Origin: a virus
Reading direction: 5' to 3' (one strand)
DNA: 37,288 nt
Virus record (IMG/VR): IMGVR_UViG_3300009503_000052
Coordinates: 1 to 37,288 of that record
The notes beneath the pieces were generated by a model. The model had not been told where the DNA came from and did no database searches. It saw only the letters and a program-made list of their open reading frames with translations. The position numbers were made by a program, and so were the translations under genes. The stretch's first letter is position 1. Every line of letters starts with the position of its first letter. Of the stretch, positions 123 to 29,220 are shown one piece after another.

Positions 123-365
123 AAGGATAAATTATAAACCACCAGAATTAAAATTATTTTAACAATATAATTAGTCAAGGCTCGTTTTCATTAGTTGAAA
201 CAATATTAAAAATCTGAAAATTTATTACAGCTCCCAATTAGAGTTCTCTTAAAAGCTTGAACCGCTTTGAATAGTCGTTGTAAAATACATTGTAGCTCCT
301 GAATTGTAAAAATTGAGAGATAAAGCTATGATTTTGCTTTCCTGTATATATCATATATATAGTAT

Positions 366-546
366 ATTCAAAAAATCCTTATTTTACAATAAGTTACAAA
401 TTTATAACAAGCCTTACAAATTTATAAGACTGCTTAAAAATTAGATATTCAAAAATCCTTTATTTTTCAACGAGTTACAATCTTATGAAACTTTTTAATA
501 AAACTATAAGTATTTTAAATAGTCTTTATTTTTCAATGAGTTATAT
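366..546 (+). repeat. Three degenerate 34-35-bp direct repeats upstream of the ubiquitin-like operon
   Basis: Copies lie at 366-399, 447-480 and about 512-546. They share the pattern ATTCAAAAA-TCCTT-TATTTTTCAA-YGAGTTACAA; the first two are most alike and the third is diverged. The intervals between copies are 47 and about 31 bp. The rest of 123-569 is A+T-rich with no convincing gene. One 17-bp motif ending in AGCTCC plus AATT also appears twice (around 222 and 288). The repeats end just before the promoter, so they could be regulator binding sites or remnants of a repeat array. Confidence 0.45.
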
Positions 547-569
547 AAGATAAAGCATTAAAAAAGATA

Positions 570-598
570 TTGAAAAAGTATAATATATATGATATGAT
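570..598 (+). promoter_or_regulatory. Sigma70-type promoter of the ubiquitin-like operon
   Basis: A -35 box TTGAAA (570-575) and a -10 box TATGAT (593-598) are separated by exactly 17 bp. The predicted start is near 604-606, giving a leader of about 50 bases before the first gene. Confidence 0.65.
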
Positions 599-606
599 AT
601 TATTAA

Positions 607-623
607 GGTATCCATTGGATACC
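607..623 (+). promoter_or_regulatory. Operator-like palindrome at the transcription start
   Basis: GGTATCC (607-613) and GGATACC (617-623) form a perfect 7-bp inverted repeat around ATT. It begins just after the predicted start of transcription. The position suits a repressor operator or a 5'-terminal mRNA hairpin. Nothing in the window directly identifies its binding partner. Confidence 0.45.
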
Positions 624-653
624 ATAAACAAAAAATATTTTGGAGGTGCCAAA

Positions 654-881
654 ATGGCAGGAACAATTTTTGAAGCAACAGGAGGAGTAAAGGTAGTGTT
701 TAATGGTGAGGTTGTCGCAGAGGTTGACAACCTCACCATTGACGCCCTGAAAAGAATAGCAAAAGAGCAGGGCGTGAAGAAATTCACCGTTGTTGACAGC
801 AACGGTGAAGAGCTAACCGCAAGTGACTTCCCCGTCACAGACGGGGAGGTCACCATTAAGCCCTACTACGAGGCAAAGTAG
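654..881 (+). CDS. Small ubiquitin-like (beta-grasp) protein, 75 aa
   Basis: Likely a protein modifier or sulfur-carrier-like beta-grasp protein, the substrate of the E1/E2/JAB set encoded next. The size (75 residues) and the alternation of predicted strands with one helix (roughly residues 30-42) fit the fold. The context, immediately before a ThiF-like E1, an E2 and a JAMM peptidase, is the main evidence. The start at 654 is chosen because GGAGGT lies 6 bp upstream; an upstream in-frame ATG lacks a site. The C-terminus ends Tyr-Tyr-Glu-Ala-Lys with no di-glycine, which is unusual for a conjugated modifier. Conjugation would need another C-terminal chemistry or trimming. The PRTRC protein C family is a possible distant relative. 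The gene contains four near-perfect inverted repeats. Confidence 0.6.
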   Translation: MAGTIFEATGGVKVVFNGEVVAEVDNLTIDALKRIAKEQGVKKFTVVDSNGEELTASDFPVTDGEVTIKPYYEAK

Positions 882-887
882 TAGGGC
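702..887 (+). repeat. Four tandem inverted repeats filling the ubiquitin-like gene
   Basis: Arms are 702-716 with 726-740 (15 bp, perfect), 783-792 with 800-809 (10 bp, perfect), 823-836 with 840-853 (14 bp, one T-G wobble) and 860-869 with 878-887 (10 bp, perfect, spanning the stop codon). Loops are 3 to 9 bases. A wobble pair is compatible with RNA rather than DNA pairing. The mRNA should fold into a chain of hairpins that ends in the terminator-like hairpin that follows. Confidence 0.85.
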
Positions 888-892
888 CACCA

Positions 893-926
893 AGAGGGAG
901 GCAAAAAAATGCCTCCCTCTTTTTTT
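893..926 (+). terminator. Intrinsic terminator or attenuator between the ubiquitin-like gene and E1
   Basis: An 11-bp perfect stem (893-903 with 910-920) with a six-A loop is followed by a T run of six more bases, the classic intrinsic terminator. The ribosome binding site of the next gene (GGGAGGTG, 927-934) begins directly after it. No promoter is evident between them, so the enzymes probably depend on readthrough, which would keep them less abundant than the modifier. Confidence 0.8.
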
Positions 927-938
927 GGGAGGTGAAGC

Positions 939-1553
939 ATGAGAGAAATTTATCAAAGACAGCAAGAGATAGGGCTCCGCAAATATGGGAGGGCCCTTGT
1001 GGCTGGGTGTGGCGGGGTTGGGAGTTGGACTGCACTGTTCCTCGCACTTTCAGGAACAGCTGAAGAGATCATTCTCGTGGACGAAGACATCGTAGAAAAA
1101 TCCAACCTGAATCGCACTCCTTTCAAATACGAACACGTGGGCCGCAACAAGGCCCACGCCCTCCGGGAGATCATCATCGAAAGAAGACCGTTTTTGAGAG
1201 TCATTTCCTACTCCAGCTGGTTGGAGGATGTGAAGGACCAGCTGGAGGGAGTGGACCTCTTCCTCGATTGCCGGGATGTAGTCGATATATACTCCGCGAG
1301 ATCTCCAATTCTCGCGGGGTACGACAAGGAAAATATATCTTTGTCTGTCAATTTCAAAAATGACCGTGTATTTGATAGCGGAATTGACAGGCACGGATAT
1401 ACCGGGGCGTGGCTCATTCCTCCTGTAATGTGTGCGTCCCTGATTATTCTTTATATTACTCAAAACTATATTTCTGAAAGTAAAAATGTAACTCTCAATG
1501 TGAGAGAGTTATTGGACAAAATTTTAAGAGGAGGCAGAGATGATAGAAATTAG
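939..1553 (+). CDS. E1/ThiF-family adenylating enzyme, compact form (204 aa)
   Basis: E1-like enzymes activate the C-terminus of ubiquitin-like proteins by adenylation. The Rossmann glycine motif GCGGVGS is at residues 23-29, followed by VDEDIVEKSNLNR (47-59), which supplies the acidic and Asn/Arg residues that bind ATP. FLDCRD (108-113) matches the MoeB/ThiF motif carrying the Mg-binding Asp. At 204 residues it is shorter than MoeB or ThiF (about 250) and lacks the CxxC zinc pairs. Cysteines are only at 24, 111 and 165, so a classical thioester cysteine is not obvious. GGGAGGTG lies 5 bp before the ATG. The 3' end overlaps the E2 gene by 14 bp, implying translational coupling. Hairpins also run through this gene. 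Confidence 0.85.
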   Translation: MREIYQRQQEIGLRKYGRALVAGCGGVGSWTALFLALSGTAEEIILVDEDIVEKSNLNRTPFKYEHVGRNKAHALREIIIERRPFLRVISYSSWLEDVKDQLEGVDLFLDCRDVVDIYSARSPILAGYDKENISLSVNFKNDRVFDSGIDRHGYTGAWLIPPVMCASLIILYITQNYISESKNVTLNVRELLDKILRGGRDDRN

Positions 1554-2303
1554 GAGCAGAATAAGAGAAGAAGTCAAAAATTTTGAAAGAGTTTTCGAAG
1601 TGTCAATTGGCACTTTGAAAACTAAAATTTTTGTGCAAGGCGATCGCCTTGCCGGTAACTACTCTCCCGAAGAAGACGGGAGAGTAATATCAATCTATTG
1701 CAGAGGATTTGTGAGTATCGCCTCGCCACCACGGCGTGAAGGCGACATTCAACAAATCCAGATTTGGAGAGGGAATTTGAGCGTATGCCTTGACTTGGAG
1801 TCCCCCTCTGAAGACAGTATTGCCAAAAAATATGTTGATGAGTTCCACAATACCCTCGCCGTGGTGGACTGCTACGGCAATATATACTTCATAGACTTCA
1901 TCCACGACAGCGACCAGGGGAAGGACTTCCTACCAACATTTTTCGAGATCCTGAAGCAGGAAGAACATCCCCTGGTCGAGGAGTGGTGGGAGATGTTCTT
2001 CGAACAGCAGCTCTTCCGAACTTTGCATTCCGAGGTTTTGCAATTCGCAAAAAACCTCAGAATAGCAGGAAAAGTAAAAAGGATTGTTGAAGAGCAACTT
2101 CAAAGCCAGTACAACAGTCAAATTGCTGCACTGGCGGAGGAAATCGAAGAACTGAAGCAGGAGCAGCTGAGGAGAGCAGAAATAGAAATATGGGGGGCAT
2201 TTCTTGCAGGGATTGAACTCTCTGCAGGGCAAGCATGGAAAGTTAATGACGGATTATTGCAATATTCCAAAAAAATAGTTGTCAAGCATATAAAGCTTGA
2301 CAA
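1035..2303 (+). repeat. Series of inverted repeats inside the E1 and E2 genes
   Basis: Pairs seen by eye: 1035-1042/1052-1059 (8 bp), 1136-1143/1151-1158 (8), 1211-1221/1237-1247 (11), 1290-1301/1310-1321 (12, one T-G), 1593-1620 (14-bp palindrome with two G-T pairs), 1635-1652 (18-bp perfect palindrome), 1660-1669/1677-1686 (10), 1911-1921/1978-1988 (11, long loop with a nested pair) and 2279-2287/2295-2303 (9). All lie within coding sequence. Such density was not seen in the late operon. G-T wobbles favour RNA-level pairing. Confidence 0.8.
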
Positions 2304-2628
2304 TAAAATAGTTGAGGCTCCTCGTGGAAAATACTATGTTAAAGGGCTCACAATCAAATACTCTCCAGACGAATTCATCAGAGCATGGGCGGGTAGATGG
2401 TATCACCCGAACATTTCTGATAGTGGTTTAGTTTGTCTTGGAGATGTAAAAAACGGTAGTGATGGACTGTTGGAGCATCTGAAAAGAATTCATATGTTGC
2501 CAGAATTGCTCCAGACAATCAATCTTGATAGTTCATACGACGGACAGGCGAAAAATGACGCTTGGGATGATTGGGAGCAATCTTCCATAGACAGTGAGGT
2601 CTTTGACCTTACAATAACAACTGAATAA
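1540..2628 (+). CDS. E2 ubiquitin-conjugating-like protein with large N-terminal extension (362 aa)
   Basis: Likely accepts the modifier from E1 and passes it to a target. The diagnostic part is Y-H-P-N-I at 288-292 followed by G296 and C299-L-G-D302. Eukaryotic E2s carry the HPN motif with the catalytic Cys eight residues after the Asn, and here N291 to C299 has exactly that spacing. Residues 1-175 are not recognised; about 178-215 are predicted coiled coil, possibly a dimer or target-binding arm. PRTRC protein B and BilB are the nearest known contexts for such E2-like proteins. GAGGAGG lies 5-6 bp before the start, inside the end of the E1 gene. The gene carries several inverted repeats, including a perfect 18-bp palindrome at 1635-1652. 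Confidence 0.8.
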   Translation: MIEIRSRIREEVKNFERVFEVSIGTLKTKIFVQGDRLAGNYSPEEDGRVISIYCRGFVSIASPPRREGDIQQIQIWRGNLSVCLDLESPSEDSIAKKYVDEFHNTLAVVDCYGNIYFIDFIHDSDQGKDFLPTFFEILKQEEHPLVEEWWEMFFEQQLFRTLHSEVLQFAKNLRIAGKVKRIVEEQLQSQYNSQIAALAEEIEELKQEQLRRAEIEIWGAFLAGIELSAGQAWKVNDGLLQYSKKIVVKHIKLDNKIVEAPRGKYYVKGLTIKYSPDEFIRAWAGRWYHPNISDSGLVCLGDVKNGSDGLLEHLKRIHMLPELLQTINLDSSYDGQAKNDAWDDWEQSSIDSEVFDLTITTE

Positions 2629-2640
2629 GGAGGAGTAAAA

Positions 2641-3225
2641 ATGAAGAAAAAAGAAAAAAAGATTGAAAAAACAATTAGTTTTGGTAGTGTTTTTGATAGT
2701 GAGCTCAAGATTGTATCTCCTGTTGTAATTATTCCGCAGAGGGTGAATAGCATTGTACGGTATATCCAGAGCAAACTCAACAACAATGAATTTTCGCTGT
2801 TGCTGAAAGGGTGCTGGACTGAAAACGGCTATGCTCTCTCAAAAGAATATTATATTCCCCTGCAAGAGGTAAGTTCCACTTCTGTTGATTACAAAGAGGA
2901 TTTATCTCTGTTGTCTTCAGAGTGGAACACTATTTACCATAGCCATCCGTTTAGCAGTGGCACTCCTTGTTTTTCAGAGGCAGACAGAACCAGTATCAAC
3001 TGCAACTTTACATGCTCTCTTCTGGGAACAAGGGAGGGCATAAAGGTTGCTAATCTATCATTCTTTACGGGAGTTTGTATGGTGCAGGTTCCTGCTGAGG
3101 TTGTAATTGTAGACGATGAAATAGAGCCAGTAGATATTAGCAAGATTACAGAAAAGAGATTTGAATACTACAATTGGTATTTGAATAGAAATTTTAAAAA
3201 CGACGATGATTTAGAGATTTTGTAG
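2641..3225 (+). CDS. JAB/JAMM metallo-isopeptidase (194 aa)
   Basis: Predicted zinc peptidase that removes or matures the ubiquitin-like modifier. JAMM residues are visible: E50 in a NEFSLLL segment, H100-S-H102-P, then S112 and D115 in FSEAD. The His-to-Asp loop is two residues longer than in CSN5 or Rpn11, as often in prokaryotic JAB proteins. The first 20 residues are Lys/Glu-rich and may be a flexible tail. GGAGG lies 7 bp upstream, and the gene follows the E2 gene by 12 bp. The set resembles PRTRC protein A, BilC and Cap3 contexts. Hairpin density is lower here than in its neighbours. Confidence 0.82.
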   Translation: MKKKEKKIEKTISFGSVFDSELKIVSPVVIIPQRVNSIVRYIQSKLNNNEFSLLLKGCWTENGYALSKEYYIPLQEVSSTSVDYKEDLSLLSSEWNTIYHSHPFSSGTPCFSEADRTSINCNFTCSLLGTREGIKVANLSFFTGVCMVQVPAEVVIVDDEIEPVDISKITEKRFEYYNWYLNRNFKNDDDLEIL

Positions 3226-3238
3226 GGAGGAGGTGTTT

Positions 3239-3490
3239 ATGCCGAGGGTAACAAGAATAAGAGTTCCAACCAATGGGAGCATATTCCATTGGTTTTCTTC
3301 CAGCTTTGGAGTTGGAGGATTTGAAAACTATGAGCCAGAACAAATTGAGGCTATATTAAGAGCTTTATACCAGTTGCTTTATGTATGTGGGAGCTGGGAG
3401 CTTTGGTTCATAGGAAAGGTGCTCCTGAAGTTATCTGATTATCCAGAACTTCAGGAAAAGTTTCTTGATGAGTTGGAGCTGTTTAAATAG
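3239..3490 (+). CDS. Unknown protein at the end of the ubiquitin-like operon (83 aa)
   Basis: No family is recognised. It begins basic (PRVTRIRV), has a Ser/Phe/Gly-rich segment (about 16-28) and continues with two aromatic-rich helices and an acidic end. ATG 3239 is preferred because GGAGGAGG sits 6 bp before it; an in-frame GTG two codons earlier overlaps that site. It follows the JAB gene by 13 bp and is followed by a terminator, so it belongs to the operon. It could be a target adaptor or a structural partner of the E2. Two perfect inverted repeats lie within it (3268-3276/3286-3294 and 3423-3432/3447-3456). Confidence 0.65.
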   Translation: MPRVTRIRVPTNGSIFHWFSSSFGVGGFENYEPEQIEAILRALYQLLYVCGSWELWFIGKVLLKLSDYPELQEKFLDELELFK

Positions 3491-3507
3491 GCTCCATTTC
3501 ATCACAG

Positions 3508-3535
3508 AGCCTCTGGTATTTCCAGAGGCTTTTTT
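3508..3535 (+). terminator. Intrinsic terminator of the ubiquitin-like operon
   Basis: AGCCTCTGG (3508-3516) pairs with CCAGAGGCT (3522-3530) around a five-base loop, followed by a T run. It lies 18 bp after the last stop codon of the operon. Confidence 0.85.
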
Positions 3536-3581
3536 ATTGGTCTTTTAAAGGCTCGTTTTAGGCTCGCAATAAAAGGGCAAT

Positions 3582-3617: not shown

Positions 3618-4043
3618 TTATTCCCCAAACAAAGAGAAATATTCGTTGCAGGTGCAACGAAATTCTCCGTTGCACCTGCAACAAGGAGAGGGCAGAGAAG
3701 GGGTAAACACCACCGCCTCAGAGGTGGTGGTGTTCACCTCGTAGTTTCTCTTTGGATCCGCTTCCCATGGATCCAGGAGAGAAACATCATATCCCTCTCT
3801 ACCCCCCCTATGGGGAGGAACAGGTATCTCCACCCTGTCTCCCTCTGCTTCCAGAGAGAGCAGGGTAAAAGAATACCTGCCCTCCCCTCCGAGTTGCCCC
3901 TCGCAGGGGTAGTGACAGGAACATTCATGTTTCGCCCCTGCGTTGAGGAGAAGTGAGGTAAACTCCTCGGGGGCATAAGTTACCCTTCGGTAATGCTTTG
4001 CCCCCCAGTCTTCCTCGTATCCGAGGAGGGCATAGAGTTTCAT
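3618..4043 (-). CDS. Cysteine-rich protein of unknown function (141 aa)
   Basis: No family is recognised. Cysteines cluster in CSCHYPC (about residues 41-47) and near the C-terminus in CCRC followed by CTC (about 121-131), suggesting zinc binding. The middle is rich in Gly, Pro and charged residues. AAAGGAGGTG precedes the ATG by 8 bp and a near-consensus promoter lies just upstream, so strong expression is likely. It is a single-gene unit convergent with the ubiquitin-like operon and shares its higher G+C and hairpin-rich coding style. A 15-bp inverted repeat (3645-3659/3668-3682) encodes the C-terminal cysteine cluster. It may be acquired together with the operon and could be a substrate or regulator; this is inference. 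Confidence 0.7.
   Translation of the reverse strand: MKLYALLGYEEDWGAKHYRRVTYAPEEFTSLLLNAGAKHECSCHYPCEGQLGGEGRYSFTLLSLEAEGDRVEIPVPPHRGGREGYDVSLLDPWEADPKRNYEVNTTTSEAVVFTPSLPSPCCRCNGEFRCTCNEYFSLFGE
3645..3738 (-). repeat. Two long inverted repeats in the cysteine-rich gene
   Basis: 3645-3659 pairs perfectly with 3668-3682 (15 bp, 8-base loop). 3702-3719 pairs with 3721-3738 (18 bp with two non-Watson-Crick positions, one-base centre). A shorter GGATCC-centred pair follows at 3753-3759/3769-3775. Confidence 0.8.
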
Positions 4044-4101: not shown

Positions 4102-4961
4102 TATCTTTTTATTTACATAGAAAAAGAGAAAGTTATTGAAAAACAAGAATTATTTAAAAATTTTATAGCTTTATTAAAAAATTAAAACACCTTTTTTATT
4201 GGGGCTTCTTGTATATTCTCTTATTGGACTTTATCACCTCAATCTCTTCAGGACTTGACAGAAATGAAAAAAAATATCAATAGTCTTTTTATCTATATCT
4301 CTTATGCTTTTTAGTTTATCTTTATTTTCTCTTTTATTCTCTTATTTATTTCTTTTTCTTATTTTTCTTTTCTATTCTTTTATTTATCTTTTCTCTTTGT
4401 TTTTTCTTTTGGTTACTTTGTTTATCTTTTTCTTTTTTGTTTTCTTACTTTCCGTCTTTGTCTTTAAGAACTCTATCCTCTATAAGAAAAAGAAAAATAT
4501 CTTATCTGTCTATGTCTACTGGTTACTGCATTGGTTATCTGATTTCAGTTGTGTGGGGTGTTTATCCAACTACCCCCAAAAAAAATTTTTTATTTACAGC
4601 TAATAAAAAATAATTAAACTATAATTAAATTAACTAATCTTTTAATAACTGAACTACTAAAGAGAAATATTACAGAAAAGTATTATGTTGTTTTTCTTTT
4701 TTGGTTAGATTTATCTGTTTAATATTAATCTTATCTATGGCAATATATTGCCAAGAATAAAATTCTTTTATATTTCAAAGAGTTATGGTGTTAGAAGTGT
4801 GAAAATTTAACATAATATGGCAGAATGTAGGTGATATAATCCCGATATTGACGGCATATGGTATGGCAAAGATGGTATGATTTTTAATGAGATTTATTGG
4901 ATAATGGATATTGTAAAAGATATTTTATAGTGTTAAAAAGATAATATAGGGGGGTATAAGG
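4102..4961. other. Gene-free A+T-rich region with a pyrimidine-rich tract
   Basis: No supported gene. From about 4290 to 4460 the plus strand is dominated by T and C in irregular CTTTT/TTATT runs. An open frame here would code almost only for Leu, Phe, Ser and Tyr and has no ribosome site, so it is not called. Strand asymmetry of this kind could mark an unwinding, packaging or recombination site. The stretch separates the ubiquitin-like module from the late operon. Confidence 0.5.
4832..4840 (+). promoter_or_regulatory. Extended -10 promoter candidate for the late operon
   Basis: TGATATAAT (4832-4840) matches the extended -10 form TGn-TATAAT. No good -35 is seen at the usual distance, which extended -10 promoters can tolerate. 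It lies about 120 bp before the first late gene. Confidence 0.45.
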
Positions 4962-5321
4962 GTGGTGTATATAATCAAAGACTATGGGAAGAAGAAGGTT
5001 CAGGAGAGGGCTATTGGTGAGATGTTAGAGAGGGCTTGTAGCAGGGTTAGTGGTAGTTATAAGCCGAAGTATGATGAGCTAATGGAGAAGGCAAAGGTTC
5101 ATGCTAAAAAGGTAGAAGAGGTATTAAAGGATATGGGGATAGAGATGATAAAGAAGATAGAAATCAGGAAACCTTCTGATTTAGACAAGGTAGCAAAGCC
5201 AGTAGAAACTCAGGGAATAGAAGTGATAGATAAAAGCCAGTTAAAGGAGGCTTTTATAGATGTTAAAGTTAATGAGAAAAATTATAATGATGTTCAGGTT
5301 GGTGGGATAAAGAAGAGATGA
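4962..5321 (+). CDS. First late-operon protein, unknown (119 aa)
   Basis: Unrecognised, basic and mostly helical, with a Lys/Glu-rich central helix (about 40-75). It starts with GTG (a second GTG follows directly), with AGGGGGGT about 6 bp upstream. Its end overlaps the portal start by 4 bp (ATGA), so the two are translationally coupled. Position suggests a small packaging or head-associated protein, but no small-terminase motif is clear. Confidence 0.7.
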   Translation: MVYIIKDYGKKKVQERAIGEMLERACSRVSGSYKPKYDELMEKAKVHAKKVEEVLKDMGIEMIKKIEIRKPSDLDKVAKPVETQGIEVIDKSQLKEAFIDVKVNEKNYNDVQVGGIKKR

Positions 5322-6874
5322 GGAAGGGTTTAAAGGTAATAAAGAATTTAAATATTTTTCCTTATGATGATAAAGAGATTTTAGATTTCAAAGATGGTTG
5401 TTTACAGAATATAGAAATCAGGCAACAGAGGTATAAACAGTTAAGAAGTGTATTATTTGATAATGAGAAGAAGAATTCTATAAGTAAAACAATTGATGAT
5501 ATAGTTTCTCTTATATATCTTCCAGATAATATTATTTTTGATATAATTGTTGACCCTGATAAAGAAGAACTGATAAATGATAAAATTCAGAAAAAAATAG
5601 ATAAATTAAATAAGCTGTTAAATGAGAAGTTTATTCGTGATGGTATAGATATAGAAATTTATGATTGGTTGTATTGGGCATGTGTTTATGGAACTTATAT
5701 AGTTAAAACAATACTTGATGGTGATAAAGTTGTATTTAAGGGAGTATCTCCTTTTGATTTTGCTGTATATTATGAAGATAACAAAAATCTTAATAAAGAC
5801 CAGATATTCTGTCATATAGCAAGGATACCTATACATGTTGCTAAAAGAAAATATCCAGATGTTAAATTTTTGCCAGCAGTAACTCCACCAGTAAGGCAGG
5901 ATACTTTCCTTGATTTGGTGATATCTCAAAATCAACAAACAGGGCAATTTAATGTAAGTCCGATACCTATCAAAAATGAAGATGAATTATCACCAAAGAA
6001 AGTTGGTGAATATGTAGAAGTATATGAAATGTGGTTCTGGGATTATGATAGAAAAGATTGGTTTATGGCTCAAATAGTTGGTGATAGAATTTATAAATCA
6101 GTTAATCCATTTATCCCAAAAGAACATCCATTTATAGCATTCACTCCAACTCCTGTGGAGGGGTTCTTCTGGGGATTATCTGAAATGCATTACTTGATAT
6201 ATCTTTTTCAAACAATAAAAAATGAAACAGATAGATTAAATAAAGTAGAGGATTTACTATCTAAACCACCAGTAATTGTGTATGGCGTCTCAGGTAGCAT
6301 TGAAGCTCAGGAAATGCAAAATAAATTAGGTCAGGCTGGCAGTGTAATTGAAATAAATGACCCTACTGCAAAATTTGACTTCTATTTGCCTAAGCTGGAC
6401 CCTGCTATCATTTTTAATTCACTTAAACATTATAGCGAAGAATTTAGAGAACAATCTGGTATTATAGGAATTCTTGGTGGTAAACCTATGCCAAATGTAA
6501 GGAGTGCTTCTTATGCTACTATACTTGCACAGTTTGCTTCCACAGTATTAAAAAAGAAAGCATTAAGAGTGGAAGCATTTATAGAAGAGATAATGACAAT
6601 GCTTGCTAATTGTATTGTATATACAGATGCAAATTATAAAGAGCTATTAAGTATTCCTTTTAGAGTTGATGTATTTGCACATACTTCTTCACCAATAACA
6701 TCTTTAGCATATCAGGAAATGATATTAACTTTTGCAGAAAATCAGATACTTCCTCCAGATGTTGTTATTGATTTATTACCCATACCAAGAAAAGAAAAAA
6801 TTAAAAAATATATGCAACAGAAAGCTTTAATGGAAATGCAAAATGAAGCTAAGAAGGAACAGGAAAACAAATAG
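5318..6874 (+). CDS. Portal (head-tail connector) protein, 518 aa
   Basis: Forms the dodecameric ring at the packaging vertex. The length matches T7-like and related podovirus portals (about 500-550 aa). Typical portal features include a long alpha/beta N-terminal half, FWGLSEMHYLIYLFQTIKNETDR (near 290-312) leading into the helical stem region, and a Glu/Lys-rich C-terminal helix (barrel-like tail). The segment GGKPMPNVRSASYATILAQF resembles the tunnel-loop area of such portals. It is followed by very small basic peptide genes and then fibre genes rather than the scaffold. Confidence 0.8.
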   Translation: MRKGLKVIKNLNIFPYDDKEILDFKDGCLQNIEIRQQRYKQLRSVLFDNEKKNSISKTIDDIVSLIYLPDNIIFDIIVDPDKEELINDKIQKKIDKLNKLLNEKFIRDGIDIEIYDWLYWACVYGTYIVKTILDGDKVVFKGVSPFDFAVYYEDNKNLNKDQIFCHIARIPIHVAKRKYPDVKFLPAVTPPVRQDTFLDLVISQNQQTGQFNVSPIPIKNEDELSPKKVGEYVEVYEMWFWDYDRKDWFMAQIVGDRIYKSVNPFIPKEHPFIAFTPTPVEGFFWGLSEMHYLIYLFQTIKNETDRLNKVEDLLSKPPVIVYGVSGSIEAQEMQNKLGQAGSVIEINDPTAKFDFYLPKLDPAIIFNSLKHYSEEFREQSGIIGILGGKPMPNVRSASYATILAQFASTVLKKKALRVEAFIEEIMTMLANCIVYTDANYKELLSIPFRVDVFAHTSSPITSLAYQEMILTFAENQILPPDVVIDLLPIPRKEKIKKYMQQKALMEMQNEAKKEQENK

Positions 6875-6881
6875 AGGCTCA

Positions 6882-6941
6882 ATGAAAAGGAGCTTAAGAG
6901 TGTATAAAAGATTTACACGGAGAAAAGGGACACTCCGATGA
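6882..6941 (+). CDS. Micro-peptide, 19 aa, strongly basic
   Basis: ATG with AGAGG about 5 bp upstream, directly after the portal stop. The product has nine Lys/Arg among 19 residues (MKRSLRVYKRFTRRKGTLR). Such a short frame can arise by chance, but the ribosome site, the tight spacing and a second basic micro-gene just downstream support it. It could bind DNA or RNA in the virion. The 3' end forms part of the left arm of a long inverted repeat. Confidence 0.45.
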   Translation: MKRSLRVYKRFTRRKGTLR

Positions 6942-7065
6942 GCAGTATTTTAAAAAAACTAAAAGGAGATTTATAATGCCAAGAGGAAAAGGAAGAACAA
7001 AAGTAAGAAAAGGCAAAAGAGGACGCAGGTCTAAGTAACTAACAGCCTCATCTGGAGTGTCCCTT
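6925..7065 (+). repeat. 18-bp inverted repeat bracketing a basic micro-gene
   Basis: The left arm 6925-6942 and right arm 7047-7065 are reverse complements except for one extra T in the right arm. The 104 bp between contains the ribosome site and the whole 20-residue basic gene. In mRNA this would be a long stem enclosing the gene. As DNA it resembles the ends of a very small mobile element. Confidence 0.75.
6976..7038 (+). CDS. Micro-peptide, 20 aa, DNA-condensing-like
   Basis: ATG with AAAGGAG 7-8 bp upstream. The product MPRGKGRTKVRKGKRGRRSK has eleven Lys/Arg, four Gly and no acidic residue, like protamine-type or viral core peptides. It is bracketed by an 18-bp inverted repeat. Inference: it may neutralise packaged DNA or bind RNA. 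Confidence 0.6.
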   Translation: MPRGKGRTKVRKGKRGRRSK

Positions 7066-7086
7066 AAATAAAAAGGAGGTAATAAT

Positions 7087-7476
7087 ATGCCAAATGTTTT
7101 AGAACAATTAGGCATTGATACTAATTTATCAGCTCCTGCTGGTGGTGAAACAGGATTAAATAAAGAAGCTCAAGCTAATCAGGCTATACCAGTTACAGAA
7201 GCAACACAACCAGCAAAATTAGGTTCTTCTAAAGAAATAGCTGAAACAATAGTTGCTGGAGCTATAATAGCTCTGGAACAGGTAGTTGCTATTTATGGAT
7301 ATACAACAGAAGAAGGCAAAAAAATAGCAAAAGCCATAGATAATTTATCTTCTGTTGTCCCTGAAAATAAAATTAAAGAAGTGCAGGGGCAATTAGGCAC
7401 TGCATTAAGCGGTGGTATGCAAACAATACAACCGCCAGCAACATCGCCAGCTGGTGGTGGAATACCAACTATGTAA
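7087..7476 (+). CDS. Putative virion protein, Ala/Gly/Pro-rich ends (129 aa)
   Basis: Not recognised. A flexible N-terminus (to about 45) leads into a helical hydrophobic core (AETIVAGAIIALEQVVAIYGY, split by charged residues) and a Pro/Gly-rich tail. AAAGGAGGT lies 7-8 bp upstream. The place between portal and fibre genes suggests a minor head or decoration protein. Confidence 0.65.
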   Translation: MPNVLEQLGIDTNLSAPAGGETGLNKEAQANQAIPVTEATQPAKLGSSKEIAETIVAGAIIALEQVVAIYGYTTEEGKKIAKAIDNLSSVVPENKIKEVQGQLGTALSGGMQTIQPPATSPAGGGIPTM

Positions 7477-7491
7477 GGAGGTAATTAAACA

Positions 7492-7842
7492 ATGGCAAAA
7501 ATAAGAATATGTCCAAATTCAAATCCATATTTTTATGGAGTTTCATTTCCAGTAACAACAATAAGTGCTACTGGAGCTATGAGTTATACAGCAACTGATA
7601 ATGATTTTACAATAGCTGTAAGCGCAACAGGTGGAGCTGTAACAGTAGCTCTTCCATCTGCTTCTACTTGTTCTGGAAGATTATATACTATTAAAAAAGT
7701 AGATAGCTCTACTAATGCTGTTACTATAGCTCCTGCAACAGGAACAATTGATGGAGCTACTACAAAATCTTTAACATCACAATATGCTGTTAATATAGTT
7801 CAGTCTGATGGAACAAACTGGCAGATTATAAGTTCATCATAA
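7492..7842 (+). CDS. Head or tail fibre-type protein (116 aa)
   Basis: Strand-rich, Ser/Thr/Ala/Gly-rich sequence. The pattern of short strands ending YTIKKVDSSTNAVTIAP, a GTIDGATT turn and a C-terminal SDGTNWQIISS is typical of trimeric phage fibre or surface domains. GGAGG precedes the start. The next gene is also fibre-like. Confidence 0.65.
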   Translation: MAKIRICPNSNPYFYGVSFPVTTISATGAMSYTATDNDFTIAVSATGGAVTVALPSASTCSGRLYTIKKVDSSTNAVTIAPATGTIDGATTKSLTSQYAVNIVQSDGTNWQIISSS

Positions 7843-7856
7843 TAGAGGTAACATGA

Positions 7857-8504
7857 ATGCCTGTACCATTACCGTATAACTTTCAGAATTTAAATACTTC
7901 TGGATTACAGGATGCAAAAGATAGTGCAGGAGATACCATAGGTAAGGCTACTCCTGCCAGCTATCTTGATAGTAATTTTAATCAGCTTGCTCAATTAGTA
8001 ACAGTATCTTCAACTGCACCAACACCAAGTTATGCAGGGCAGTTATGGCTGGATACTTCTGTATCTCCACCAGTAATGAAGCAATGGGATGGTTCTGCAT
8101 GGCGAGGTAATTCTGATACGGTAGATGGTTTTCATGCGAGCCAGACATCTCAAGCTAATACGATACCAGTAGCAGATAATAGCGGAAAATTGAATATTAA
8201 TTGGATACCTTTCATGTTTAATTCTGTAAGTGTGATAAGTCCATCTGCAAATACTATATATCAAGAGACTGCACCTTGTTTGATTATGGTGGTTTCACAA
8301 GATTTATACGGTTTACAACTTTCTCCTGATGGTTCAACTTGGTATGGGAGTTTTGGACAAGAGCATTTATGGAGTACAAATGAGGGAGGGACAATTACCT
8401 TTTATGTTCCTAAAAATTGGTATTGGAAGTATACCGGTCTTTTCACTTCTACGTCGTATGATTTTTCCTCCAGTTACTGGTTAAAAATTGTATTTAATTA
8501 TTAG
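7857..8504 (+). CDS. Tail fibre protein (215 aa)
   Basis: Likely a receptor-binding or fibre component. It contains the common phage fibre motifs QLWLDTSVSPPVMKQWDG (about 62-79) and DTVDGFHASQ followed by ANTIPVADNSGKL (about 88-112). The C-terminal 90 residues are aromatic, strand-rich and probably the receptor-facing part. A short gene with fibre-assembly-like features follows. Confidence 0.78.
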   Translation: MPVPLPYNFQNLNTSGLQDAKDSAGDTIGKATPASYLDSNFNQLAQLVTVSSTAPTPSYAGQLWLDTSVSPPVMKQWDGSAWRGNSDTVDGFHASQTSQANTIPVADNSGKLNINWIPFMFNSVSVISPSANTIYQETAPCLIMVVSQDLYGLQLSPDGSTWYGSFGQEHLWSTNEGGTITFYVPKNWYWKYTGLFTSTSYDFSSSYWLKIVFNY

Positions 8505-8516
8505 GAGGTTAAAAAG

Positions 8517-8945
8517 ATGGCAAAATTTGTTTTGTATAAAAATGAAGGAAAAATTTATAGACTTGAAGCAGAACTCCCCCCTTCTGATGCATATATTGTT
8601 TTTGATTTTGATGCAGAAAATCCCGAAGATTTAATTTATGATGGTTCTCAAATTCGTTTAAAAACTCAAGACGAGAAGCTACAAGAACTTAAAGCTCAAA
8701 AGCTTTCAGAGCTAAAAACTTATGTAGCATCTTTACTTGTTCAAACTGATTATATAATCACGAAGATAGCAGAAACTCTGATACAAAACAATACCGCAAA
8801 AGTAGAAGCCCTCAAACAAAAATACTCAGCCCAATTACAACAAAGAGAGGTAATTAGAGCTTGGAATGAGAAAATGAAGCAAATTATACAAAGCGCACAA
8901 ACAATAGATGAATTGAGAGGTATTGCAATTGAATTTAAAGAATAA
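8517..8945 (+). CDS. Putative tail fibre assembly or chaperone-like protein (142 aa)
   Basis: The N-terminal strand-rich part (1-55) followed by a long charged helix (EKLQELKAQKLSELKTYV, about 58-75) and further helices resembles small proteins encoded after fibre genes that help fibre folding. GGAGG is 7-8 bp upstream. Overlaps the next gene. Confidence 0.55.
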   Translation: MAKFVLYKNEGKIYRLEAELPPSDAYIVFDFDAENPEDLIYDGSQIRLKTQDEKLQELKAQKLSELKTYVASLLVQTDYIITKIAETLIQNNTAKVEALKQKYSAQLQQREVIRAWNEKMKQIIQSAQTIDELRGIAIEFKE

Positions 8946-9273
8946 ATTTTTAAAAATTTTTAATAGTAAGTGGTGCCCTTTTGGAAACTGCAATGATCCC
9001 ATTCCACTAGAATGGGTTTTTGCAAAATATGGTAATATAAAAGCTTATCTTTATTGGTATTTCATTAGAAATCCTTTCCATAATTTTGCACATTTTTGGC
9101 TGGGAACTGGAAATTATCCAGCTGAGTGGAAAGTATGGTCTTCTAAAAGAAGATGGAATTTAGTATTACCTTTCTTTTCTTACAGAAGTAAAAAATGGGA
9201 ATTTTATGCAGGATGGAGACCAGATAGTAAAATGTTTGGTATAGCATTAAGAAAAATTAAAGGAGGTGTTTAA
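8923..9273 (+). CDS. Phage protein with WxxIRNPxHNF motif (116 aa)
   Basis: An aromatic-rich protein with YWYFIRNPFHNFAHFW at about 43-58, a pattern seen in a family of uncharacterised phage proteins. Two CxxxC-like cysteines lie near residues 18-23. It probably starts at TTG 8923 or 8929, after GAGAGG inside the previous gene. Many Trp/Lys/Arg residues suggest contact with membrane or cell wall. Function unknown. Confidence 0.6.
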   Translation: MQLNLKNKFLKIFNSKWCPFGNCNDPIPLEWVFAKYGNIKAYLYWYFIRNPFHNFAHFWLGTGNYPAEWKVWSSKRRWNLVLPFFSYRSKKWEFYAGWRPDSKMFGIALRKIKGGV

Positions 9274-9275
9274 CA

Positions 9276-9572
9276 ATGCCAAAAGCTTTTAATGATTGCC
9301 CGTCTGATTTACTGGAAAAAATCAGACAGCAGTATAATACTTTACAGGCAGATGTAAATAATCTGATAACAAAGTATAATGCACTTGTTAGCCTTGTGAA
9401 TGATATGAAAGCTAAATTTAATGCTCATACTCACACAGTAACACATGCCGCTTGCTCTGCAACAAATGCTGCTTATGGAACTGCTACTGCTATTACTTCT
9501 ACTTCTGGTCCTTCAACAACAGTTGCTGATGGAACAACTGCAAGCATTACTGCTGATACAGTAACAAGATAA
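9276..9572 (+). CDS. Putative tail/spike-associated protein with HxHxxxH motif (98 aa)
   Basis: An N-terminal coiled coil (10-48) is followed by FNAHTHTVTH (about 47-56) and a Thr/Ala/Ser-rich tail. His-rich HxH motifs of this kind occur in phage spike and baseplate proteins, where they bind metal ions. Fits the neighbouring fibre genes. Exact role unknown. Confidence 0.6.
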   Translation: MPKAFNDCPSDLLEKIRQQYNTLQADVNNLITKYNALVSLVNDMKAKFNAHTHTVTHAACSATNAAYGTATAITSTSGPSTTVADGTTASITADTVTR

Positions 9573-9584
9573 GAAGGAGATAAA

Positions 9585-9698
9585 ATGTCTGAAAGAACAA
9601 AAAGAACAGCAAGTAGAAAAAAATCAAGAACAATACCAATGAGAAGAGAATATGGAGCAATAGGAGGAAGAGTAAGAAGAAAAATAATAAGGAGATAA
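9585..9698 (+). CDS. Basic micro-protein, 37 aa
   Basis: ATG with AGAAGGAG 6-7 bp upstream. About 15 of 37 residues are Lys or Arg, with only two Glu (MSERTKRTASRKK, then RVRRKIIRR at the end). This is the third strongly basic tiny gene in the late operon. Candidate nucleic-acid-binding virion peptide. Confidence 0.6.
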   Translation: MSERTKRTASRKKSRTIPMRREYGAIGGRVRRKIIRR

Positions 9699-9709
9699 AG
9701 GAGTTAAAA

Positions 9710-9850
9710 ATGCCTGAAAAACTTGATAGATGTGTGAAAAAATTACAAAAGAAAGGATATTCTAAAAATTCCGCCTATGCCATTTGCTCTACAAGCACAG
9801 GATATAAAAGAGCAAAAGGCGGTAAATGGAAAAAAACTAAAAAGAGGTAG
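9710..9850 (+). CDS. Small phage protein, 46 aa, Cys-containing and basic
   Basis: MPEKLDRCVKKLQKKGYSKNSAYAICSTSTG resembles short phage proteins with the pattern LD-x-CV ... G ... A-x-AIC that are widespread but uncharacterised. The two cysteines (8 and 26) and a Lys/Arg-rich tail (33-46) suggest a small helical binding module. GGAG lies about 7 bp upstream. Confidence 0.65.
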   Translation: MPEKLDRCVKKLQKKGYSKNSAYAICSTSTGYKRAKGGKWKKTKKR

Positions 9851-9853
9851 TTT

Positions 9854-10057
9854 ATGGAAGTTCAATTTGCAGTTGGGATTTTTATTGGCATAACAATATT
9901 TGTAATAGGCAATTTATTGCTTGCAGGAATTAAAGGAGAAAACAAAAAAGTTGATGATAATACATTTAGGGCATGTATTGATGCTTTAAACAAAAGGCTT
10001 GATATAATTGAACAAAGAATTGCAAGAATAGAAGAAATACTTTTGAAGGGGAATTAA
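9854..10057 (+). CDS. Single-pass membrane protein with coiled coil (67 aa)
   Basis: One N-terminal transmembrane helix (about 4-26) is followed by a cytoplasm-facing coiled coil (about 40-64). It precedes a holin-like protein and an endolysin, so it may be an antiholin or accessory lysis protein. No close family is recognised. Confidence 0.6.
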   Translation: MEVQFAVGIFIGITIFVIGNLLLAGIKGENKKVDDNTFRACIDALNKRLDIIEQRIARIEEILLKGN

Positions 10058-10058
10058 A

Positions 10059-10535
10059 ATGATACTTGGTGCAATATTAGGTTTAGCAGGTTCATTTATT
10101 CCAGAAATTATCAAAATATTTAAATCTAAACAGGAACATAAACAGGAACTTGAGATGCTGGAAATGCAACTAAAATATCAAAGAGAAATGACTGAATTAA
10201 AAATTGAAGAAGCTAAAGCTATGGCACAAGTTGAATTAGATAAACAAGTATATCAATATGCAGAACCACAGGAACTTAAAATAACAGGCAAATGGTGGCT
10301 TGATGCTATTCAGATTATTATGAATGCTTATAATCAATCTGTTAGACCAACTATTACTTATTTGGTTATCGGTGCGTGGTTACTGCTAAAATTCAGTATG
10401 TGGCAATCTGCTGGAGGGACTTTGCAGGCTATACCACAAATATGGAGTGATGTTGAAAATGAATTTGTTAGTGTGGTGGTTACTTTCTGGTTTGGTTCAA
10501 GGGTTGTAATGCGAACATTTGGAAGGATAAAGTGA
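10059..10535 (+). CDS. Holin-like membrane protein (158 aa)
   Basis: Membrane segments lie near residues 1-18 and 106-122, with a further hydrophobic stretch near 138-152 and a charged helical region (22-72) between. The pattern SVRPTITYLVIGAWLL followed by a C-terminal VVTFWFGSRVVMR is typical of the three-TM holin family found in phages and gene transfer agents. It overlaps the endolysin gene by four bases, as lysis pairs often do. Confidence 0.65.
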   Translation: MILGAILGLAGSFIPEIIKIFKSKQEHKQELEMLEMQLKYQREMTELKIEEAKAMAQVELDKQVYQYAEPQELKITGKWWLDAIQIIMNAYNQSVRPTITYLVIGAWLLLKFSMWQSAGGTLQAIPQIWSDVENEFVSVVVTFWFGSRVVMRTFGRIK

Positions 10536-11369: not shown

Positions 11370-11803
11370 GTAATTACTATTTATTTCCAGAACAGATTTA
11401 TAATAAAGGAAATTTTGGAGGATTGATATTCCAGACTAATAATGGAGTTAATCTAATCTTTCAGAACTCTTCTGGTGTTAATTTAATAGCTGGTAAATAT
11501 CCTTTGCAGGATTTAGCAGGACAGGAAATATTAAATCTCCTGCAATATCCATCAGGGATATATTTAACTCAATTAGGCAGTTATTTATTACAATTACTTT
11601 TACTTTCAAATGGATATTGTTCAACTAATTATGGTATTAATAACTTAATCTTATGGTTACTATTAGTTTCTTTTATAACCACTCAATATGGAACAGATAA
11701 GATAAAAACAGCGAGCTGGGTGAATATACAGGGAGCTAATTATAGCAGTAAAGTTACATCAAAAGCAAGTTATAAATTAACGCATGTTGAAAAAAATTAT
11801 TAA
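11366..11803 (+). CDS. Unknown structural protein (145 aa)
   Basis: Not recognised. A short internal duplication (GLIFQTNNGVNLI and LIFQNSSGVNLI, about 20-42) is followed by Leu-rich helices (about 45-105) that could be membrane-associated or a core helix bundle. It overlaps the previous gene by 4 bp. Confidence 0.6.
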   Translation: MSNYYLFPEQIYNKGNFGGLIFQTNNGVNLIFQNSSGVNLIAGKYPLQDLAGQEILNLLQYPSGIYLTQLGSYLLQLLLLSNGYCSTNYGINNLILWLLLVSFITTQYGTDKIKTASWVNIQGANYSSKVTSKASYKLTHVEKNY

Positions 11804-11836
11804 TTGTGTTAATTAAAAGTAAAGGGGGTGATAAAA

Positions 11837-11992
11837 ATGTTAGGAAAATCAAAAGGTATGGGAAGGAAGATGCCTGTACAGGTTGATCAGGCAAAGGATT
11901 TTCTTGGTATTGACCTTAATCAGGACCCTAAAATAGGTTTTCATCCTTCTGTAACAAAGAAAGAAACAAGAAAAAAAGGAGGTAAGAAGTAA
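11837..11992 (+). CDS. Small basic protein, 51 aa, before the scaffold
   Basis: ATG with AAAGGGGGTG about 6 bp upstream, and a stop overlapping the scaffold start (TAATG). Both ends are Lys/Arg/Gly-rich and the centre is neutral (VDQAKDFLGIDLNQDPKIGF). It may be an assembly or core peptide. Function unknown. Confidence 0.65.
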   Translation: MLGKSKGMGRKMPVQVDQAKDFLGIDLNQDPKIGFHPSVTKKETRKKGGKK

Positions 11993-12531
11993 TGGAAGAA
12001 TTTGATATTGAAGAAGCATATAACAGATTAAAAAATGAATATGAACAATTAAAACAGGCTTACAGTGCTTATGAAATGGGATTTAAGAAAGCATATGAAG
12101 ACCCGGAGCTAAGACCACATTTAAAGAAAATTGGTGAAAAAATTGGTGTAGTTATTGATGACCCACCACATGAAAAGGTTTATAAAAAAGAGATTGAAGA
12201 ATTAAAGAGACAGCTTGAAGAAAAAGAAGCTAAAGAAAAAGAAGAGAAAGCTAAACAGAAACAGGAGGAGTTTATACAGTTACTTGCAAAATACGGGATA
12301 ACAACAGATGCTGAATATCAGGATTTTCAGAAATTTATTCAGGAAAACGGTGTAGTTCCATCAACACAAAAAGGATGGGAAAAGATGTTGCAGGATTACA
12401 GGCGTGCAAAAATAGCACAGCCAACATATCAGCGACCAGCATTTAAAAACAGAATAGGAGAAGATTTTATTAAAAATCCAGAAGAGGCTTTGTTTAAAGC
12501 TCATCTGGAAGCATTAGGAGTAAAACAATAG
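11992..12531 (+). CDS. Putative scaffold (capsid assembly) protein (179 aa)
   Basis: Highly charged, helical and coiled-coil-rich (about 5-30 and 65-105), with a Lys/Glu-rich centre and a basic C-terminal segment that may bind coat protein. Its place directly before the major capsid gene is typical for scaffolds of procapsid-assembling phages. No enzymatic motif. Confidence 0.75.
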   Translation: MEEFDIEEAYNRLKNEYEQLKQAYSAYEMGFKKAYEDPELRPHLKKIGEKIGVVIDDPPHEKVYKKEIEELKRQLEEKEAKEKEEKAKQKQEEFIQLLAKYGITTDAEYQDFQKFIQENGVVPSTQKGWEKMLQDYRRAKIAQPTYQRPAFKNRIGEDFIKNPEEALFKAHLEALGVKQ

Positions 12532-12544
12532 GAGGTAACAAACA

Positions 12545-27998: not shown

Positions 27999-28260
27999 TG
28001 TTACTTTTTTGTCTAACTCATTCCTCAATCTTGTTACTATGTTTAAATAACTCATTTAGACTTTCTTGTTACTCCTTCCTTGTAACTCATTTAAATTTCT
28101 TGTTGCTTATTATTTTTAACTCATTTTTACATCTTTATTGCTTATAACACCTAACTCATTTCAAATCTCTGTTGCTTTCTATTCCTAATTCATTCCTATT
28201 TTCGTGTTGCTTGAGATTTCTAACTCATTCATAAAAATTGTTGCTTTCGTTTCATAACTA
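27999..28260. repeat. Eight-unit tandem array with alternating 34/35-bp spacing
   Basis: Core TAACTCATT (one copy TAATTCATT, the last diverged) starts at 28014, 28048, 28083, 28117, 28152, 28186, 28221 and 28255. A second core TGTTRCT starts at 27999, 28032, 28067, 28101, 28136 (TATTGCT), 28170, 28205 and 28239, always 16 bp (15 in the first) before its partner. Core-to-core steps alternate strictly 34 and 35 bp; the gap after TAACTCATT alternates 9 and 10 bases. Non-core bases vary. The array fills the gap between convergent transcripts. Confidence 0.9.
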
Positions 28261-29220
28261 TGCTACTTTTTTCTTTTTACTTGCTTTACTTCTTAATGTT
28301 TCTTCTATTTGTATTGCTTGTTTCCAGTCTATAAAATCATCATGCTTTAAGAATTCAAAAGCATAAGGCATTCTATATCCCATGCCTGATAGTTCTCTCC
28401 ATGATTGGTATAAATGTGCAAGAAATATTTTAAAAGCTTTTCTTCTTGCTGAAAGTGTTGCTCTTCTTGAAGCTACCTTTGTCTCTTTGCCTCCCTTTTT
28501 AACAATTTTATAATACTTATCTTTAGCATCAGGTCTGTTCATTAGCCTTTCTCTTTCTTGCTTAAATATTCTACCATAGAAACTCTTGTTGGGATTTTTA
28601 ACCCAATATTCAGTAACAATATAATATGTTTTTTTAGCTTTTTTGTTCCAGAAACTAAAGTAACCTTTCATTCTTCTTGGTGGCATAGGCTCTGCTTTAA
28701 TAATCTTACCACCACATTCCCCCATAACAGGTCTTTTTATAAGAGTTATGTCTCCATCAAGGTCTTCTGATAGTTCTTCATCCTCATCTATCTTCTTTGG
28801 CATTATACAGGTAGCTCCTGTTTTAAATGGGTCAGATGGTAGCAGTATTTTATGTCCATGTTCACATTCACAAGCCCAGTAAACAGGAACTAATCCAAAA
28901 TACGCATACCAGTCAGAAAGCTCTCTTTTAAGGTCAAGTCCTAATGACAGCAATCTTAAAGAAGTTCTGATATTGATACCATTTACTTTAATTAAAAACT
29001 CATTATAAATAATATCATTTTTTAATACCTCTTCAGCCTGTCTGGTAATAATTTTTTCAAATTCTTTAATTTTTTTAACATGTTCCATTGCTATTTTTCT
29101 TTCTCTGTGGTCTTCATCATAATTCTGCACAATTGCTCTTAACCTGTTTTCTGCGGCTATTCTCATCTTCTGAACAGCCTCAAATGTATCACAAATCCCT
29201 CTTAATGCTAAAGATTGCAT
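28258..29220 (-). CDS. IS110-transposase C-terminal-like HhH protein (320 aa)
   Basis: A helical N-terminus (1-70) is followed by FLIKVNGINIRTSLRLLSLG (75-94) and YAYFGLVPV (105-113), which resembles the helix-hairpin-helix Transposase_20 domain of IS110 elements. A CEC...C...C insert (117-165) may bind zinc. The end has RRKAFKIFLAHLYQSWRE (about 262-279), a motif of related phage proteins. The RuvC-like catalytic domain of IS110 is not seen, so it may bind branched DNA rather than transpose. GGAGG precedes the start. It is the last gene of the leftward operon. Confidence 0.55.
   Translation of the reverse strand: MQSLALRGICDTFEAVQKMRIAAENRLRAIVQNYDEDHRERKIAMEHVKKIKEFEKIITRQAEEVLKNDIIYNEFLIKVNGINIRTSLRLLSLGLDLKRELSDWYAYFGLVPVYWACECEHGHKILLPSDPFKTGATCIMPKKIDEDEELSEDLDGDITLIKRPVMGECGGKIIKAEPMPPRRMKGYFSFWNKKAKKTYYIVTEYWVKNPNKSFYGRIFKQERERLMNRPDAKDKYYKIVKKGGKETKVASRRATLSARRKAFKIFLAHLYQSWRELSGMGYRMPYAFEFLKHDDFIDWKQAIQIEETLRSKASKKKKVA

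Follow-up and report, generated by a model that had tools for sequence, protein, structure and literature searches.

Comparison with described systems

The known bacterial systems built around ubiquitin-like modifiers (Ubls) act in defence, and one of them, the host-encoded Bil (ISG15-like) anti-phage system, consists of four separate genes in the order Ubl-E2-JAB-E1. CBASS is cited as a defence-acting bacterial Ubl system (PMC10097602). Iyer et al. (2006; PMC1779556) described bacterial Ubl operons of type 6d, with stand-alone genes for a Ubl, an E2-like protein, a JAB protease and an E1-like protein; in these the Ubl has a conserved C-terminal glycine, the usual histidine is missing from the E2, the JAB protein contains a JAB-N domain and a helical protein is also encoded. 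In lambda-like tail genes, too, a Ubl domain occurs together with a JAB protease (PMC1779556). Here we describe a set of adjacent Ubl, E1, E2 and JAB genes in IMG/VR virus record IMGVR_UViG_3300009503_000052, a linear stretch of 37,288 bases without end repeats that spans the complete record and is called the window below. Judged by sequence, the set has every feature of Ubl conjugation that was looked for (a predicted beta-grasp modifier, an E1, an E2 and a JAMM protease) and very probably constitutes a complete cassette owned by the phage.

The window resembles Bil in having four separate Ubl, E2, JAB and E1 genes, whereas in gene order it differs (Ubl-E1-E2-JAB). Stand-alone genes for the same four proteins are also shared with type 6d operons, which we take to be the PRTRC cassettes, but the terminal glycine, the histidine-less E2, the JAB-N domain and the helical protein of those operons are not seen here. 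The PRTRC_ThiF model gives the E1 21.8 bits against a cut-off of 144.75, none of the other PRTRC models matches, and Prok-E2_D is absent among the Pfam matches of the E2; the scores of the PRTRC models and the missing type 6d features together rule out membership of that group. CBASS Cap2 and Cap3 contain a ThiF-fold E1, a UBC-fold E2 and a JAB protease as in the window, but Cap2 is a single E1-E2 fusion that ligates a cGAS-like enzyme, whereas the window encodes separate proteins and a true Ubl. Type II CBASS was ruled out by these separate E1 and E2 genes and by the lack of any SMODS match, the sign of a CBASS nucleotidyltransferase, in the record. In the lambda tail proteins TAPI and TAPK, Ubl and JAB-NlpC domains occur among tail genes without E1 or E2, both of which are present here. 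A literature search that left out preprints and most subscription papers found no published description of a complete phage-encoded Ubl cascade.

The Ubl cassette and its predicted products

Five almost touching plus-strand genes lie near the left end of the window, each start being preceded by a strong Shine-Dalgarno sequence. The sequence-only reading had described them as five tightly packed genes with ThiF, HPN...Cys and JAMM motifs; these motifs are present and their catalytic residues are intact. The first gene (654 to 881) encodes a ubiquitin-like beta-grasp modifier of 75 amino acids with the C-terminus ...IKPYYEAK. A start at TTG 570 had been listed for it by a mechanical call, whereas the Ubl itself begins at ATG 654 behind GGAGG. 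An AlphaFold2 model built from 20 sequences has beta-beta-alpha-beta-beta topology, with a mean pLDDT of 79 and about 85 in the core, and nearly all of its top Foldseek matches are ubiquitin-like folds, among them 8tyx, a bacterial Ubl bound to its deubiquitinase. With a best E-value of 0.007 and none below 0.001 these matches are moderate, and model and matches agree with the earlier assignment of this protein to the beta-grasp fold.

The E1-like enzyme (939 to 1553; 204 amino acids) is a ThiF-fold adenylating protein that matches Pfam ThiF at 2.3e-21 and has MccB, SUMO E1, ThiF and MoeB as its best relatives in the PDB. Its adenylation site is complete, with R7, the GxGGxG motif, D48, D50, N56, R59, K71, D110 and D113 invariant in 16 of 16 homologues. 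The sole well conserved cysteine sits inside the DCRD motif (14 of 16), and no dedicated catalytic cysteine is evident among the aligned sequences. The E2-like enzyme (1540 to 2628; 362 amino acids) combines a variable N-terminal region with a C-terminal UBC core, HPNISDSGLVCLGD, in which H289, N291, C299 and G301 are invariant in 14 sequences. A profile of these sequences retrieves UBE2C first from the PDB (1.5e-5), followed by UBE2D and UBE2N, with the active sites aligned, and among the 60 matches listed all except one are E2s or E2 fusions. The JAB/JAMM metalloprotease (2641 to 3225; 194 amino acids) carries the signature E50...HSHP...S112EAD115, and all 17 homologues share the residues E50, H100, H102, S112 and D115; its profile places the JAMM deubiquitinases AMSH/STAMBP first, at weak E-values (0.15-0.5). 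Taken singly, the E2 reaches 0.07 with UQ_con and the JAB protein 0.09 with Prok-JAB, both below the curated cut-offs, and the Ubl has no curated family match. No Pfam or NCBIfam family lies above its cut-off for these three proteins, and PHROGs and PADLOC give marginal matches only. The identity of the E2 and the JAB protein is nevertheless settled, because their family profiles recover E2s and JAMM proteases.

Among 20 Ubl homologues the C-terminal motif ends in A-[K/A/G], or P-K in the case of L147, with YYEAK in the window and YNEAA, YNEAK, VDEAG, YVKAG or HNKAA in others. Half of these proteins (10 of 20) stop exactly at the motif and the other ten extend 1-70 residues beyond it, with tails of 13 residues in L151, 14 in L157 and 70, zinc-ribbon-like, in L152. 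Tails of such varying length behind a constant motif would be tolerated if a protease matured the Ubl, which makes the JAB protein the likely Ubl-processing enzyme, and the pattern suggests that the tailed Ubls are matured by it to an end at the alanine or at the residue after it. With its distinct terminus and naturally occurring length variants, the family lends itself to direct in vitro tests of maturation and conjugation. In L147 the JAB gene is followed (11634-12535) by genes for two cysteine-rich proteins that look like zinc fingers and are possible E3-like partners.

The chemistry of Ubl conjugation can be assigned to the window set with fair confidence, and active conjugation is probable. 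The E1 would adenylate the C-terminus of the Ubl, which would probably pass straight from the adenylate to C299 of the E2, since the E1 has no conserved cysteine beyond its adenylation site. The E2 would then form an isopeptide bond on a lysine of the target, and the JAB protease would trim those Ubls that have a tail after A-[K/A/G] and could also undo conjugates. A hairpin resembling an intrinsic terminator (892 to 921, plus strand; 12 bp stem followed by a T run, -22.4 kcal/mol) lies in the gap between the Ubl and E1 genes and may raise the level of the Ubl above that of the enzymes. In G005, a phage contig with a related set, the next gene follows the Ubl gene after only 20 bases, closer than in the window.

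Relatives in other phages

Relatives were recovered by a DNA pattern for the E2 active site (HP[NH][IV]xxxGx[hydrophobic]CLG) and by an alignment of E1 proteins, pattern scans of viral contigs with the window E2 or E1 alone and tblastn on phage and plasmid records having returned nothing. The E2 pattern matched 25 viral stretches, with a ThiF-family protein in 22 of the 24 records searched, and the E1 alignment yielded 75 viral loci. Ubl, E1, E2 and JAB are all recognisable on 12 viral contigs besides the window and L065 (a Sulfurovum bin), and further contigs have all except one of the four. Since the same four genes recur in so many other phage contigs, a chance origin of the gene set is excluded. 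Terminase, capsid or portal genes accompany the cassette on several contigs, all three on G005, and small phages often have the set next to portal or terminase.

The sets of G005/L146, L145, L150, L151, L152 and other phages share with the window homologous Ubl, E1, E2 and JAB genes, their adjacency and a phage context, at identities that for G005 are 33% (Ubl), 37% (E1), 26% (E2) and 32% (JAB). A search of phage genomes for the same gene order, as the sequence-only reading had proposed, found Ubl-E1-E2-JAB in L151 and L152 as well; most sets, unlike the window, have E2 before E1 (Ubl-E2-E1-JAB), and none has the fifth gene of the window locus, which encodes a protein of 83 amino acids. The E1 tree has a supported clade (97/88) that contains the window; its rows are 14 from phages plus L065. 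Placement inside this clade is weak, and the cellular relatives (Omnitrophota) fall outside it.

More distant sets occur in cultured and crAss-like phages. Bacteroides phage DAC15 (L222), L223 and L224 (crAss-like) and Flavobacterium phage FpV4 (L221) carry, at about 1.5-5.7 kb of each, a related pair of ThiF and JAMM genes, annotated as thiamine biosynthesis or metalloprotease. The gene upstream of the pair looks E2-like (HSH...CLG in DAC15, cr128_1 and cr126_1; NFCIG in FpV4), and the pairs are also preceded by a gene whose N-terminus looks like a beta-grasp. DAC15 and FpV4 offer experimental systems. A second type of phage set, with the order E2 (HPH...CLG)-JAB-E1, which resembles that of Bil or PRTRC, is found in L015, L017, L018, L024, L028, L031 and others, and the viral contig L010 (1949-4539) encodes an E1 of 379 amino acids, an E2 with a zinc-finger match and a desampylase-like JAB protein, resembling ubiquitin-type operons of archaea. 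In the large phages L148, L149, L150, L153 and L157 a second, shorter ThiF gene lies about 5-8 kb downstream of the cassette.

An exchangeable slot in the phage genome

The setting of the cassette is clarified by L004, an independent IMG/VR contig of 8.7 kb whose portal protein is 89% identical to that of the window and which is colinear with window 4909-10261 except for gaps. L004 also matches the window on either side of the cassette, at 343-570 on the left and at 3239-3550 on the right, the latter block comprising the 83-amino-acid gene and a terminator. Between these blocks, window 571-3238 with the Ubl, E1, E2 and JAB genes is replaced in L004 by 921-2983, which encodes an amidoligase (Amidoligase_2, 22.1 bits against a cut-off of 22), a protein of 148 amino acids and a class-II amidotransferase-like protein (weak GATase_6). 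As L004 shares the flanks, the 83-amino-acid gene and the portal region, the locus is genuinely part of a phage and its contents are exchangeable. The doubt whether the cassette really lies on phage DNA is answered by the presence of both slot flanks in L004, and the earlier claim that a phage genome holds the entire Ubl-E1-E2-JAB cassette is supported by four intact genes, phage flanks and relatives in many phages.

Amidoligase/GATase pairs of phages (PF12224/PF13522) have been proposed to alter the cell wall and block superinfection (PMC10580990). In L004 such genes occupy the same slot, but their enzymes are unrelated to the Ubl set, and the swap suggests that tagging of proteins or of the cell wall is common among phage strategies. 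A scan with the L004 amidoligase for further sister loci returned L004 only. Within L004 250-3235, beside the amidoligase and class-II amidotransferase-like genes, there is also a GNAT acetyltransferase gene flanked by two copies of the left flank.

The 83-amino-acid gene (3239 to 3490, plus strand) is the fixed right-hand gene of the locus. The copy in L004 is 77% identical and is found together with the terminator (3506 to 3537, plus strand), an intrinsic terminator ending the locus that is conserved there. In agreement with the earlier statement that this protein has no recognised family, searches matched the L004 copy and no other relative, and none of the other Ubl sets examined includes it; its model is all-helical at low confidence, with fold matches that are not meaningful. 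The suggestion that it sets the specificity of the system has lost ground, since the L004 copy follows the amidoligase/amidotransferase set, and a role as an E3-like factor was dropped for the same reason. The gene is accordingly assigned to the locus and not to the Ubl system; its product is either unconnected with tagging or a shared substrate.

The contents of the slot differ from the rest of the genome in composition. GC content is 40-46% in the Ubl cassette versus 32% for the phage, and GC at third codon positions (GC3) declines from 0.53 in the Ubl gene to 0.39 in the JAB gene, compared with 0.15-0.22 in the virion genes. The higher GC3 indicates that the cassette was recently acquired.

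Possible role and alternative explanations

A somewhat favoured overall account is that the window carries a complete Ubl conjugation system of a phage-dominated family, lodged in an exchangeable accessory slot and most likely serving as a conflict module, whose target would be either a defence protein of the host or part of a competing phage. A conflict role is preferred on three grounds: the acquisition of the set is recent, its occurrence is sporadic, and amidoligase/GATase genes can take its place. Taken by itself, the role is about evenly balanced. Several points weigh against this account. Of the four proteins only the E1, through its ThiF domain, scores above a curated family cut-off; the other three, taken singly, stay below all of them, and the Ubl lacks a C-terminal Gly-Gly, the window protein ending in EAK, that is, in Ala-Lys and not Gly. 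The case for a conflict role is drawn from the mobility and exchange of the set and from its analogy with Ubl systems of defence, not from a target, and the position of the cassette beside portal or terminase genes in several phages fits modification of the virion equally well.

Such self-modification is the strongest rival because proximity to portal or terminase recurs, though it is rather unlikely. On this view the phage would decorate its own portal, head or tail proteins with the Ubl, which would serve as an assembly switch or as a structural or protective tag and be edited by the JAB protease. In L151 and L152 a portal-head morphogenesis gene comes directly after the set; in L155 the set follows the terminase, in L145 it precedes terminase and portal, and in the window the portal is close by. 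The pairing of Ubl and JAB domains in lambda-like tails (PMC1779556) provides a precedent. However, proximity carries little weight, since structural genes occupy much of a small phage genome. In large phages, of which L150 is an example, the set sits among replication genes, and the sister phage L004 retains the portal without the cassette. Capture of an unchanged bacterial anti-phage system, shielding a lysogen or an infected cell from other phages, would fit the defensive nature of the known bacterial systems and the recent acquisition indicated by GC3. It is improbable, as the record has neither a CBASS nucleotidyltransferase nor an integrase, apart from the generic E1 domain the only PADLOC match is a marginal one of the JAB protein to a methyltransferase, and the nearest relatives of the E1 are in phages, not cells.

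A sulphur-carrier or cofactor pathway of the ThiS/ThiF or MoaD/MoeB type, in place of protein conjugation, is suggested by the E1, which scores highest with ThiF-type models. The missing Gly-Gly carrier end, on which this candidate was rejected, makes it very improbable, and so do the adjoining E2 with invariant HPN and Cys that complete sets always have and the biosynthetic partner genes, which are not seen. The higher GC content of the cassette could also reflect host or chimeric sequence joined onto a phage contig, a reading that is scarcely credible and is contradicted by L004, where homologous flanks border the slot left and right and the 83-amino-acid gene recurs, and by similar sets inside other phage contigs.

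Bacterial Ubl systems have so far been regarded chiefly as weapons of host defence, a view that a recurrent family carried by phages turns round, raising the question of what phages tag. Speculatively, the locus could be a slot for exchangeable protein-tagging systems that share a common target, perhaps the 83-amino-acid or a neighbouring virion protein; the modifiers would form a dedicated phage Ubl family with an Ala-[K/A/G] end matured by the JAB protease, exchanged at this fixed site for an unrelated set of peptide ligases.

Phage type and other features

The description of the phage as of virulent type is weakly supported: no tyrosine integrase is present in the 37,288-base record, but the record is linear, has no end repeats and may be incomplete, and a protein of 320 amino acids (28258-29220, minus strand) matches a PHROG called transposase (5e-24). 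A scan with the window portal matched only uncultured contigs and two distant spring phages.

The left flank of the slot (343 to 570, plus strand) is AT-rich, contains repeats of CTTTATTTTTCAAYGAGTTA and shares 79-83% identity with L004 700-920 and 42-193. The repeat occurs four times in the window, against 0.04 copies expected, and four times in L004; the window copies lie at 377-543, before the cassette, and at 4766-4785, before the portal module, and the repeat is possibly a phage promoter or operator. A promoter-like site before the Ubl gene (570 to 598, plus strand) reads TTGAAA-17-TATGAT with TG ahead of the -10 element, a match to the consensus alone at 10 of 12 positions. Downstream, a second variable gap extends from the terminator to the portal region and contains a GC-rich (53%) open reading frame of 141 amino acids on the minus strand (3618-4043) without a family match. 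The virion module, colinear with L004, starts with a protein of 119 amino acids and a portal/connector-type protein (4962 to 6874, plus strand). Elsewhere, L066, binned as Izimaplasma, looks T4-like (clamp, clamp loader and helicase), and its Ubl set is interrupted by genes resembling GIY-YIG-type homing endonucleases.

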